From: a virus
Length of the DNA: 31,936 nt
IMG/VR virus record: IMGVR_UViG_3300010430_000322
Coordinates: 1-31,936 of that record
Direction: 5' to 3' (one strand)
This document shows positions 7,710 through 31,936 of this stretch, in pieces (within the stretch, counting starts at the first letter, position 1; every line of letters starts with the position of its first letter). A program made the position numbers and the translations under genes. Below the pieces are notes generated by a model that was not told the origin of the DNA, did not search any database, and saw only the letters and a program-made list of their open reading frames with translations.

Positions 7710-7760
7710 TGGAGCAGCAAGGATAACCCTTGTGGAGAAATATTAACTTGGAGAATTAAA

Positions 7761-8054
7761 ATGGCATTAGATAAGAATTTAAACCCAGGAGATTTAGAAG
7801 TTCAAATTAAGTTTAAGCTGAGGGACATGCGATCTCAGATGATTACTGACGGTACGTTAGATGGTACTGACTACCCAGGTATTCAAGGTGGATTGCATGA
7901 GGTATGTTTTACCCTGAACGACATCTTCGATCAGTTTGTGGTTGATACGGCACTCACCACCTACACTAACCATAAGTTAGCAAACAGTTGGCGAGAACTC
8001 AGGGACATTGCACAAGCTAATTTCGAGGCAATAGACGCTATCATCAATCCATAA
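7761..8054 (+). CDS. Small late-block protein, function unknown
   Basis: A 97-residue soluble protein with good start context (GGAG, 7-base spacing). It is mostly helical by composition, with no cysteines beyond one and no membrane segment. No family is recognised. It lies just before the holin candidate, a place often used by lysis or packaging accessory genes, but nothing in the sequence shows which. Confidence 0.65.
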   Translation: MALDKNLNPGDLEVQIKFKLRDMRSQMITDGTLDGTDYPGIQGGLHEVCFTLNDIFDQFVVDTALTTYTNHKLANSWRELRDIAQANFEAIDAIINP

Positions 8055-8056
8055 TA

Positions 8057-8075
8057 TTTACAGCGTTGCTGTGAA
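8057..8075 (+). other. Hairpin just upstream of the holin candidate's ribosome binding site
   Basis: TTTACAGC and GCTGTGAA form an 8-bp stem (one G-U pair) with a 3-base loop, ending a base or two before AAAGGAG. It could modulate translation or mark RNA processing. There is no U-run, so it is not a terminator. Confidence 0.35.
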
Positions 8076-8089
8076 AGGAGCATAGACCA

Positions 8090-8365
8090 ATGAACGACTG
8101 GCTTTGCGAAACAGAACACTGTAAATCACACGAGTATGTGGTGAAAACGATGGAAAGACTGGAGAGAATATCTATTGATCTTTCTAAGAATCAGTCTGAG
8201 TTAGTAGCAGTAGTGGGGAAGCTAACTGCTTTAACGGATCGTGTCGTTAAGTTAGAGAACAACCAAGAAGAGATTAAGAAGTTCATCTACAAGATCGGTG
8301 GGGCAATAGCCTTAGTAGCATTAACTTCTCCTGTCTTGGTTGCTTTTATCCAGAAACTATTGTAG
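8090..8365 (+). CDS. Coiled-coil plus single membrane segment protein; XhlA-like holin candidate
   Basis: A 91-residue protein with AAAGGAG 9 bases before the ATG. Residues about 20-65 form a heptad-like coiled coil (SIDLSKNQSELVAVVGKL, then VVKLENNQEEIKKF). One hydrophobic segment follows (GGAIALVALTSPVLVAFI) with a short tail. Coiled coil followed by one C-terminal membrane helix is the plan of XhlA-type haemolysin/holin proteins, which help release endolysin from the cytoplasm. It is the last gene of the late block. The holin assignment is inference from architecture and position. Confidence 0.6.
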   Translation: MNDWLCETEHCKSHEYVVKTMERLERISIDLSKNQSELVAVVGKLTALTDRVVKLENNQEEIKKFIYKIGGAIALVALTSPVLVAFIQKLL

Positions 8366-8366
8366 A

Positions 8367-8385
8367 TTTGTATCTCAGATACATT
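8367..8385. promoter_or_regulatory. 19-bp near-palindromic repeat, copy 1 (convergence point)
   Basis: TTTGTATCTCAGATACATT; the inner 15 bases (TGTATCTCAGATACA) are a perfect palindrome about a central C. It lies two bases after the stop of the last rightward gene and before the leftward terminator, at the very end of the leftward unit. Confidence 0.75.
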
Positions 8386-8396
8386 CTCAGAACGAC

Positions 8397-8437
8397 AAAA
8401 AAGATACCCCCAGTACCTCGCAATGAGATACTGGGGG
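8397..8437 (-). terminator. Intrinsic terminator of the leftward transcription unit
   Basis: CCCCCAGTA (8407-8415) pairs with TACTGGGGG (8429-8437), with 3 more pairs inside and a 5-base loop. On the minus strand the stem is followed within four bases by six U (the A-run at 8397-8402), so it terminates leftward transcription. On the plus strand no U-run follows, so termination of late transcripts here would be weaker or use another mechanism. Confidence 0.85.
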
Positions 8438-8452
8438 CATTCGTGGTTGGAG

Positions 8453-8566
8453 TTAAAGTTTATCTACGGTCAGTACTGCAAATATCCCATAGATGTTAAC
8501 CAGTATACAAGCGATGATCATCAGCCTTATGGCTAATCCGCTTTCCTCTTCCTTCTCTTTACTCAA
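8453..8566 (-). CDS. Small single-span membrane protein (37 aa, TTG start)
   Basis: The TTG start overlaps the stop of the lipoprotein gene (TTGAGTAA), with GAGG 9 bases upstream. The product has a charged N-terminus (SKEKEEESG) followed by one hydrophobic helix (LMIIACILVNIYGIFAVL) and a short tail. It is the last gene of the leftward unit and ends 16 bases before the terminator hairpin. A role with the neighbouring lipoprotein in the cell envelope is possible but not shown. An internal ATG (22 aa) would still make the membrane helix. Confidence 0.5.
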   Translation of the reverse strand: MSKEKEEESGLAIRLMIIACILVNIYGIFAVLTVDKL

Positions 8567-11909: not shown

Positions 11910-12251
11910 CTATCTCCCTTGGGCTAGCTTAAGCCCTTTACGTGTTTTCTTTACCCAGGGTTTCTTCTCACGTTTGACGCTCACCAATGAGTTAGTAAAC
12001 ATCTTGTCGCTCAGAATCTGCTCTCTTTGAGTCACAACGTCCATAGTCTTAGGATCGACTGCGATGAAAGCATGGATACCTTCTTGCTCTCTCTTCTTCA
12101 GAGCTAGCCTGGCGTTACGTCTAGCCTTCCAATAGTTCTTGAAAGACATAGCCTCGGGTCTCTTGTGTGGTGGCCTGTTATGTACTAGTGCCATCACTGG
12201 TATGTCTACTAGCTTACGCTCGGAATGTTTCTCAGATACATTTTCTTCCAT
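11910..12251 (-). CDS. Basic protein of unknown function with operator-encoded N-terminal peptide
   Basis: A 113-residue, strongly basic protein (Lys/Arg-rich C-terminus REKKPWVKKTRKG), which could bind nucleic acid. The ATG overlaps the dUTPase stop (TAATG) and follows GGGAGG. Codons 4-10 read NVSEKHS because copy 2 of the 19-bp repeat lies inside the gene, 9 bases after the ATG. No known domain is recognised. Confidence 0.7.
   Translation of the reverse strand: MEENVSEKHSERKLVDIPVMALVHNRPPHKRPEAMSFKNYWKARRNARLALKKREQEGIHAFIAVDPKTMDVVTQREQILSDKMFTNSLVSVKREKKPWVKKTRKGLKLAQGR
12224..12242. promoter_or_regulatory. 19-bp near-palindromic repeat, copy 2
   Basis: AATGTTTCTCAGATACATT, inside the first ten codons of the basic protein gene on the minus strand (encodes NVSEKH). 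Confidence 0.75.
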
Positions 12252-27541: not shown

Positions 27542-27560
27542 AATGTTTCTCAGATACATT
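27542..27560. promoter_or_regulatory. 19-bp near-palindromic repeat, copy 13
   Basis: AATGTTTCTCAGATACATT. Its last base is the first base of the upstream gene's stop codon; the next gene starts 35 bases on. Confidence 0.85.
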
Positions 27561-27976
27561 TACATTTGGTAATCGTAAGAGTCCGAATCTTGTTTCGCGA
27601 CCCAGTATGTTACACCGTCCGTTGTATATGTACCATTCCGCTCTGCCTCTGCCTGGGATACACCTTTCAGGGTACCGCAGGGTACTACCGCTCCGCTGTC
27701 GAGCATCAGCTTAGCGCACTCCCTGTTATCTCTGATCAGGAAAACATAATCCTGACTGCACTGACCAGCCAAGAATATTACACGGTTAAGCACGTCCTGG
27801 CTGCTGATCTCTGTCAGGTAGACAGTCTCAGTCTCGTTATTATCACAGCCCGTCAAGGTCTTAACAGGTTGCTTGATGAATCTCTGAATAGCGTCAAGCA
27901 AAGTCTCACTTGCCATTGCAGGGGCCAGGTCGTCAGATACTGCGAACAATACACATGGTCTGTAGAAATCTTTCAT
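27560..27976 (-). CDS. Protein of unknown function
   Basis: 138 residues after GGAGG. Mixed alpha/beta composition with five cysteines scattered through it; no signal or membrane segment. The segment VIFLAGQCSQDYVFLIRDN looks like a buried core. No family recognised; one of the larger early-block proteins. Confidence 0.7.
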   Translation of the reverse strand: MKDFYRPCVLFAVSDDLAPAMASETLLDAIQRFIKQPVKTLTGCDNNETETVYLTEISSQDVLNRVIFLAGQCSQDYVFLIRDNRECAKLMLDSGAVVPCGTLKGVSQAEAERNGTYTTDGVTYWVAKQDSDSYDYQM

Positions 27977-30006: not shown

Positions 30007-30840
30007 TTACTTCTTGACGTTCTTCTGATAGGTGGCAAACATTGCGTTAAGCTCGATGATAGCAGTAGCCATTTCCTCGAATCCTTCGGAATCGCATTCT
30101 TCCAGTTTCTTGGTTGCCATCTGTACTGATCTTTCCACGGTTTTCCAGGCAGGTTCTCCAGGGCTATCCGAGCCATTCTTCAGCAGCTCATCCAGCTCAG
30201 CCTTAGTGATCAGTCTACCCTCTGGGAAAACTGCTTTCCAACCTGCAGCCTCGATACCCTGGAATATACGGGCCAGGTACTGGGTCCATCGGCGTGTTTC
30301 GGACCAGGCAGCCCATTTGACAGCACCGTTTTTCTTCCGCAAGGTGATTTCTTCGCCAGTGTTCGAAGTACCTTTCTCAGGAATGGCTCCACCGCTGGAT
30401 TTATCCAACAATTTGTACATCACTTTCCTGTTTTCCTTTGCCTCGGTACCGAAAGAAGCCTTTCTGGAGTAAATCCAGTCTCCAGTCCTGTACCATTCCT
30501 CAGCCTCAGCAGCGTTTGCACCGATTACAGCACCAATCAGCAGGACCGTATCTTCGTCAGCAGTGGTTGGCTCGGTTACAGCTTTACCTTTCTTAGCAGG
30601 TGCCTGGGTCTTAGCAGAAGCCTTCTTAGCAGGTTTTTTCTTGGGTACCAGGGAAATGGAAGCGTCATCGTTAATTAGGTACTGGTGACCTTGCTTCTCG
30701 ATGGTCTCGATGACTGCAGCTCTAAGCTCGTCAACCTGCTTGTGGGTCCTGACGTTAGGGATTTCAATACCCAGGTTATTCAGGGCAGGGCTGGAAACTA
30801 CTTGATTAAGATTGTCAATTCTTTGGGATACTTTCAACAT
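30007..30840 (-). CDS. First gene of the leftward unit; protein with Lys/Ala-rich histone H1-like linker
   Basis: 277 residues from the ATG at 30840 (GGAGG, 8 bases upstream; an earlier Met has no site). The N-terminal 65 residues are helical (SQRIDNLNQVV..., VDELRAAVIETIEKQG). A Lys/Ala/Pro linker (KKKPAKKASAKTQAPAKKGK) resembles H1-like tails. The C-terminal 170 residues include two Trp-rich segments (AEEWYRTGDWIYSRK, VKWAAWSETRRWTQYLARI). No family recognised. Being first in the unit, it may be expressed very early; the linker suggests DNA or RNA contact, perhaps with the structured RNA just upstream. Confidence 0.75.
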   Translation of the reverse strand: MLKVSQRIDNLNQVVSSPALNNLGIEIPNVRTHKQVDELRAAVIETIEKQGHQYLINDDASISLVPKKKPAKKASAKTQAPAKKGKAVTEPTTADEDTVLLIGAVIGANAAEAEEWYRTGDWIYSRKASFGTEAKENRKVMYKLLDKSSGGAIPEKGTSNTGEEITLRKKNGAVKWAAWSETRRWTQYLARIFQGIEAAGWKAVFPEGRLITKAELDELLKNGSDSPGEPAWKTVERSVQMATKKLEECDSEGFEEMATAIIELNAMFATYQKNVKK

Positions 30841-30880
30841 GGTAACATCCTCCAATAATGGATTCATAGTTTACTTCGTG

Positions 30881-30899
30881 AATGTTTCTGAGATACATT
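30881..30899. promoter_or_regulatory. 19-bp near-palindromic repeat, copy 18
   Basis: AATGTTTCTGAGATACATT, between the structured RNA region and the first leftward gene. Confidence 0.85.
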
Positions 30900-30915: not shown

Positions 30916-31494
30916 AGTGAAGGATACATAGTTTAGATGGAGGAAGCGGGGAAAAGCACCCGCTCACGGAGATGGATTAGCAGGACCCGTACAGGTTGCA
31001 ACCTGCAGCCAATGCCTTCAACCGTAGTACCCGTAGCAGTTAGCCATCCTACGACCCAGAACCTTAAAAGGTAAAACGTCTAGGTTGATTGGCTTTCCTA
31101 CGCTACGAAGTACCTAGTATCAGACTAGGGACCCGTTCGGCATGGACCTTGTTATACGATGCTAGTTTGCTAGACTAGGCACCGCAAGGTTTATCCGATT
31201 GCGTTGACCATCTCTTTGCGCTTCCGCTTGGCACCATATCCCAGGTGCGTTTACAGGGGACCTTTCATTCGACCCAGTGACTAAATGTAGTTTGGGTCGA
31301 GCTAGTCCTTTGCCTTTTCGCCTAGCCTGACCTTTCCTCGGTCTAGTCAAACTAGGTTACCTCGCGCTCTCCATCCAGGCATAACTTGTATTGCTTGCCT
31401 TCAACCTGTCCTGTTCCTACCGTTACCCGTCTGAGATAGTTTGTGTGGGTAACCTCGCTGTACTTCCCAGGTTGCTATGTAGTGTTCCTTCACT
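30916..31494 (-). ncRNA. Candidate large structured RNA (about 580 nt)
   Basis: No credible gene lies here. The ends pair: 30916-30931 with 31475-31494, 16 bp with one 4-base bulge, spanning about 550 bases. Nested inside are GATGGAG (30936-30942) with CTCCATC (31369-31375), GAGATGG (30969-30975) with CCATCTC (31208-31214), and CAACCTG (31402-31408) with CAGGTTG (31468-31474), which encloses GTTACCC (31422-31428) with GGGTAAC (31447-31453). Local hairpins lie at 30945-30964, 30992-31005, 31061-31072, 31113-31129, 31146-31190, 31231-31248, 31269-31300 and 31301-31326. The long helices do not cross. Size and multi-junction form resemble phage-borne ornate RNAs such as ROOL and GOLLD, but I cannot assign a family. 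The minus strand is favoured because a -10-like TATAAA lies just upstream. Confidence 0.6.
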
Positions 31495-31512
31495 AATGGT
31501 GTACCGTAAATG

Positions 31513-31540
31513 TTTATAGTTGACCGATTAAACCGATTAA
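31513..31540 (-). promoter_or_regulatory. Possible promoter of the structured RNA, with tandem 9-bp repeats
   Basis: On the minus strand TTAATC (31535-31540) and TATAAA (31513-31518) are separated by 16 bases, placing a start near 31506, about 12 bases before the closing stem. The -35 match is poor. Two perfect tandem copies of ACCGATTAA (31523-31540, plus strand) overlap it and could bind a regulator. Confidence 0.35.
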
Positions 31541-31561
31541 GGCAATAGACTATACTTGGCA

Positions 31562-31570
31562 TGATATAAT
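31562..31570 (+). promoter_or_regulatory. Possible extended -10 promoter facing right
   Basis: TGATATAAT is an exact extended -10 (TGn plus TATAAT) on the plus strand, without a good -35 (nothing near TTGACA at 16-18 bases). It would start transcription near 31577 heading for the right edge, in the direction of the late genes. Confidence 0.4.
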
Positions 31571-31755
31571 ACTAAGGGTATTACTTATGAGTATACCCTG
31601 GTAGTACACTAGAGTATTACTACCAGGATACAGTTAGTACATACTACCAGTGTAACAGTTAGGGTATTCAATATGTATTTAAGATAGGGTATAGTCTACC
31701 AGGTTATTCTTACCTAAGGTATATACCCAGGGTATTACTCTAGGGTAGTATGATA
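31571..31755. repeat. AT-rich repeat region: AGGGTAT and CTACCAG motifs (control region or origin)
   Basis: No gene. AGGGTAT occurs at 31575, 31593 (reversed), 31661, 31686 and 31729. CTACCAG occurs at about 31620, 31645 and 31695, with an inverted copy at 31597; the first pair forms a 10-bp inverted repeat (31597-31606 with 31618-31627). Repeats in AT-rich DNA between divergent blocks fit a promoter cluster, a replication origin with iterons, or both. Confidence 0.5.
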
Positions 31756-31774
31756 AATGTTTCTGAGATACATT
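31756..31774. promoter_or_regulatory. 19-bp near-palindromic repeat, copy 19
   Basis: AATGTTTCTGAGATACATT, at the right edge of the AT-rich control region; the only copy well away from any gene. Confidence 0.85.
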
Positions 31775-31936
31775 CAAAGGATGTGCGTAGGGGTAGCACC
31801 CCCGTGAGTACCATGTGATGAACAAAAAGATACCAATAGGTACCATCCAGCAATACATAGGGGTGGGGGGTGTTTTCCGTGGGGTATGCAACCCTGGAGA
31901 CAAGACGAGACCCCCCGTACACCCCCTCCCTTACCC
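31775..31936. other. G/C-tract region at the right edge, no gene
   Basis: A small hairpin (GGGGT-AGC-ACCCC, 31790-31802) is followed by unstructured sequence, then runs of G on this strand (31861-31884) and runs of C (31911-31930). GGGGGGT (31865-31871) can pair with ACCCCCC (31910-31916), or GGGGGTGT (31866-31873) with ACACCCCC (31919-31926). It may belong to a leader of rightward transcripts or to a terminus; neither is shown. Short frames here look like chance. Confidence 0.4.

Follow-up and report, generated by a model that had tools for sequence, protein, structure and literature searches.

The DNA analysed here, which we call the window throughout, is a 31,936-nt stretch, a fragment of 31.9 kb from a phage to which nothing in the phage collection is closely related; the best matches there are about 30% (DNA polymerase), 35% (large terminase) and 38% (capsid) identical. 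With a dispersed 19-bp palindrome as probe, further contigs of this species were recovered. One of these, L007, overlaps positions 31137-31936 of the window with 3 differences and extends it rightward with the genes of the small terminase, the large terminase and the portal, while a second, L016, contributes capsid and tail genes. Their gene content places the element described below, a candidate structured non-coding RNA on the minus strand (30916-31494), in a gap of roughly 1.16 kb from which two units diverge, the early/replication unit leftward and the terminase/structural unit rightward. The leftward unit extends over ~23 kb and ends at a strong intrinsic terminator on the minus strand (8440-8404), in which a 16-bp stem is followed by a T-run. 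The convergent gap at this far end (8366-8558) is also highly structured, with a minus-strand z of -5.4 for which the terminator is at least partly responsible. Directly 3' of the element, which thus stands at the head of the leftward unit as the first-pass annotation had stated, lies the first early gene (30007-30867, minus strand). It is listed as an ORF of 286 aa, has a better-placed start at 30840 after a GGAGG and has a homolog in the related contig L223. Among the other genes of the phage is one for a sigma-like protein, and the early gene at 27560-27976 gives a match just under the cut-off to the S-adenosylmethionine lyase family PF23780, which makes it a possible anti-restriction protein.

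Several further features surround the element. Between it and the first early gene there is a copy of the 19-bp palindrome, AATGTTTCTGAGATACATT (30881-30899), and a second flanking copy is located at 31756-31774. Both belong to a set of 19 copies with the consensus AATGTWTCTSAGATACATT that is spread over positions 8367-31774, with further examples at 12224 and 27542. Many copies occupy short gaps directly 5' of leftward genes, an arrangement similar to that of dispersed operators or stoperators; no corresponding repressor was identified. Upstream of the element, short AT-rich direct and inverted repeats (AGGGTATTACT, CTACCAGG) fill positions 31540-31750 and possibly mark a promoter or origin region. 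Promoter scans gave signals no better than chance. At the right end of the window, a GC-rich block (31856-31936) near the terminase small-subunit gene resembles, as judged by eye in alignments of the relatives, a block present there, and is a possible packaging site. Another contig of the same species, 3300010430_000534, starts at 31823, and its 114-bp overlap with the window end at 31936 could represent a terminal repeat or a packaging site beside the terminase gene.

The leftward strand of the element (579 nt, 5' end at 31494) folds with a minimum free energy of -209 kcal/mol, compared to a mean of -178 kcal/mol for dinucleotide shuffles. The corresponding z is -4.35 over 200 shuffles, none of which was as low (0/200), and -4.67 over 100 shuffles, so that the comparison with shuffled controls suggested in the first-pass annotation came out in favour of the structure. 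When the whole window is divided into consecutive 579-nt minus-strand pieces, the element ranks first among the 54 (z -4.40, against a mean of -0.93 and an s.d. of 1.28), followed by the piece at 7756-8334 with -3.99. According to the predicted fold the ends of the RNA pair with each other: RNA positions 1-9 with 571-579 and 14-20 with 564-570 form a closing stem of 9 + 7 = 16 bp with a 4-nt bulge, whose arms correspond to 31475-31494 and 30916-30931 and whose pair probabilities are 0.97-0.99. Duplexes of equal strength between terminal 26-mers arise in 17 of 2000 shuffles, a figure that applies to the ends as chosen and is uncorrected for that choice. Three long-range helices are nested inside the closing stem in the minimum-free-energy structure, at 119-126/553-560 (0.98), 281-287/520-526 (0.94) and 360-363/511-514 (0.61), and numerous local hairpins are present. 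The hairpin domain at 31402-31474 (minus strand; helices 21-27/87-93 and 42-48/67-73, probability 1.00) abuts the closing stem, the helix that ends at 31475 meeting one that starts at 31474. The architecture read by eye from the letters, with its 16-bp stem, at least three nested long-range helices, many hairpins and two adjoining stems, is thus reproduced by the calculation. The majority of the named helices have a pair probability above 0.9, and all 180 of the 180 predicted pairs are retained when the element is folded in a context of 668 nt.

The plus strand of the same segment is also over-stable, with a z of about -5.0 to -5.12 versus shuffles, and therefore the fold alone does not indicate a strand. 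The A-rich single-stranded parts were considered as evidence for the minus strand and rejected, because base composition accounts for them. The region contains no ORF longer than 62 aa and no credible gene, in agreement with the first-pass annotation. No tRNA was found in the window, nor was a degenerate tRNA cluster, and an Rfam search of 30916-31494 at the gathering score and at E values up to 5 returned no family and specifically neither ROOL nor GOLLD; faint hits to snoRNA and microRNA families in the relaxed search were dismissed as noise. No known family thus fits the element, a candidate large structured phage RNA, and membership of ROOL or GOLLD is not supported, given the missing Rfam match, the lack of a tRNA in the window and the early-operon position.

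Is a structured RNA also present at this place in other phages? A capsid search led to L109, which shares with the window phage a colinear order of terminase, portal, scaffold, capsid and tail genes, and the terminase Walker A pattern VAVSSCTGxGK retrieved about 20 related contigs. A sister phage of the window phage, L226, has a terminase of 75% identity, and its contig stops within the terminase small-subunit gene. Three matches of the same pattern in bacterial genomes were taken as chance. Protein searches of viral_contigs with the first early gene, the ligase and the primase/helicase returned no relatives, and a broad terminase alignment returned distant phages only. In L217, L230, L234 and L238 the large terminase is an unbroken frame of at least 766 codons, in which the Walker A lysine is directly followed by additional in-frame sequence, the pattern expected of an intein. 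The gap between the small terminase and the first early gene measures 705 bp in L229, 882 bp in L236 and 788 bp in L231. In L223 it is about 1.9 kb, depending on which small ORF is counted as the first gene, and a gene homologous to the first early gene of the window (36-38% identity) occupies the same place here. This gap in L223 also contains 10-bp direct repeats (TATCCCTAGA, L223:4224-4298), possibly origin iterons, whose letters resemble the repeats beside the element. A single tRNA gene is located in the terminase-early gap of L224 (L224:776-850), at the same contig end as the structured RNA of that contig.

In several of these approximately 20 contigs the early-operon gap carries an element that is strongly structured on the strand of the early genes. 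Beside the first early gene, z is -7.85 on the early-gene strand versus -4.98 on the opposite strand in L229, and -4.03 versus -1.86 in L236. Three further contigs end before the early gene is reached, and their gaps show the same bias: -3.16 versus -1.88 in L233, -4.56 versus -2.41 for the last 300 nt in L224 and -5.25 versus -2.22 for the last 580 nt in L109. The gap of L240 is mixed, as positions 301-600 give -2.83 versus -1.31 and the last 580 nt -2.80 versus -3.82 on the opposite strand. There is no structure signal in L231 or in the partial L219 and a weak one in L223, which indicates that the structured gap element is not universal. None of the relatives' gaps matched ROOL or GOLLD in an Rfam search.

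The relatives also supply covariation. L109, L224 and L240 align across a three-way-junction domain, in which 97.4% of the cells are paired and both sides have changed in 12 of 26 pairs. This result is matched by none of 500 shuffles, and sliding the partners lowers the pairing to at most 50%. The structure was drawn by hand from the same three sequences, which inflates the paired fraction but does not by itself imply the double-sided changes. Near the 3' end, an 11-bp hairpin shared by L109 and L240 has 6 of its 11 pairs changed on both sides. L229, L233 and L236 have a different feature in common, a stem that carries the invariant loop UUGACUGG and in which all three variable pairs (3/3) are changed on both sides; the pairs are few, and 17 of 500 shuffles equal this result. 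With regard to strand, four cells of the L109/L224/L240 alignment are G-U pairs on the early-gene strand. A-C mismatches, the equivalent of G-U pairs on the opposite strand, hardly occur, with a single cell in the L229/L233/L236 motif. Although the numbers are small, this favours an RNA that is read in the early-gene direction.

Local alignment of the window's element with the gaps of 12 relatives gave no score clearly above shuffles. Covariance models built from L109/L224/L240 (R1) and L229/L233/L236 (R2), run over about 248 kb, recovered nothing beyond their own members, and both scored at chance level against the window with filters off. R2 gave an E of about 0.1 in the window, once per strand, and this was treated as chance. 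A 150-nt covariance model of one domain of the element found the window and L007 alone. Since no homology is detectable, the kinship of the element with the relatives' RNAs is positional. No sufficiently diverged homolog of the element was found either; the sole near copy is that of L007, with 1 difference in 358 nt, which falls on an unpaired base. The case for function is consequently made by the element's own fold and position and not by its own covariation. The covariation search suggested in the first-pass annotation gave compensatory changes in the positional counterparts of L109, L224 and L240.

Between the element and the first early gene the window has no intrinsic terminator oriented with the early genes, and the same holds for this place in L229, L236 and L240, so that the element is most simply read as the 5' leader of an early mRNA. 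Our best reading is that the element would be a large structured leader of this kind that evolves rapidly, and we see about an even chance that it is indeed transcribed as a structured early leader RNA. The early transcript would begin within the AT-rich stretch immediately to the right of 31494, and its first ~580 nt would fold into a multibranched structure closed by its own ends. The polymerase, meeting no terminator, would then continue into the first early gene and the ~23-kb operon.

What could such a leader do? Most likely it would act in cis and condition the early transcript. It could do so by marking the host RNA polymerase, like the put RNA of HK022, or by controlling how stable the long mRNA is or how it is processed; the leader may also be cut free later as a stable RNA. 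The put RNA acts in cis on RNA polymerase without the need for a phage protein, and consists of about 70 nt in two stem-loops (PMC9378689). The element resembles it as a structured RNA that, by its predicted transcription, would head an early phage transcript, but at 579 nt and with more than 20 helices it is far larger. Leftward terminator-like sites within the operon are not above chance, and an antiterminator would accordingly be without an obvious target. A put-like action on host RNA polymerase is a guess by analogy, and an improbable one in our judgement.

An alternative that we regard as unlikely, although it fares best among the rivals, is a stand-alone RNA that is made early, cut from the mRNA and acts in trans as a scaffold or cage. 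There is precedent in ROOL and GOLLD, large phage RNAs without known function that often lie by tRNA islands and assemble into RNA-only cages (PMC12286853). The element is close to ROOL in size and density of structure, and closure by its own ends is what would be expected of an independent domain. On the other hand, it matches neither the ROOL model nor the GOLLD model with its conserved 3' region, its 3' end has no terminator or known processing site and it has no tRNA neighbour in the window, heading an early operon instead. The likeness to GOLLD is limited to being a large structured phage RNA, as GOLLD is bigger (many exceed 800 nt) and is usually found close to tRNA islands (PMC12286853).

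It appears less probable still that the gap is a replication origin, where repeats, hairpins and perhaps an RNA primer would start DNA synthesis. ColE1 RNA II is a structured RNA of ~550 nt next to an origin, similar to the element in length and in being structured; it differs from the element, which has no Rfam match, runs directly into an operon and gives no sign of priming. The divergent arrangement of the gap, the AT-rich repeats that adjoin the element, the 10-bp repeats in the equivalent gap of L223 and the good folding of both strands of 30916-31494 would fit an origin. However, the structure lies beside the repeats and not over them, and the relatives show better folding for the early-gene strand than for its complement and keep G-U pairs on it, which points to RNA.

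There is only a small chance, in our view, that the fold is functionless and owes its excess stability to composition and to the choice of the best segment. The segment was indeed picked by a reader for its stems, the piece at 7756-8334 also reaches a z of -3.99, and with no diverged homolog the element shows no covariation of its own. Against this, none of the 200 shuffles is as stable, the helices are well defined and structured elements with compensatory changes stand at the equivalent place in relatives. Least probable is an RNA or DNA site read by the terminase for packaging: a similar GC-rich block adjoins the terminase small-subunit gene in relatives, and contig ends fall there, but in the window this block is ~360 bp away from the element, which is on the early-gene side of the gap, and both terminase genes of the phage, small and large, are ordinary.

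There are few large structured RNAs of unknown function, and ROOL and GOLLD are without an established role. With the leader as our preferred reading, we tentatively suggest, while considering it the less likely outcome, that these contigs may represent an undescribed lineage of environmental phages in which one or more new classes of large ornate RNAs head the early operon, with position and structuredness kept while sequence and fold vary by subgroup, as an early-acting counterpart of ROOL and GOLLD. The L109/L224/L240 subgroup provides a defined target that is independent of the window's own RNA. If a large RNA had a fixed position at the head of the early operon, this would link RNAs of this kind to the first minutes of infection and offer a definite stage and place for testing them.
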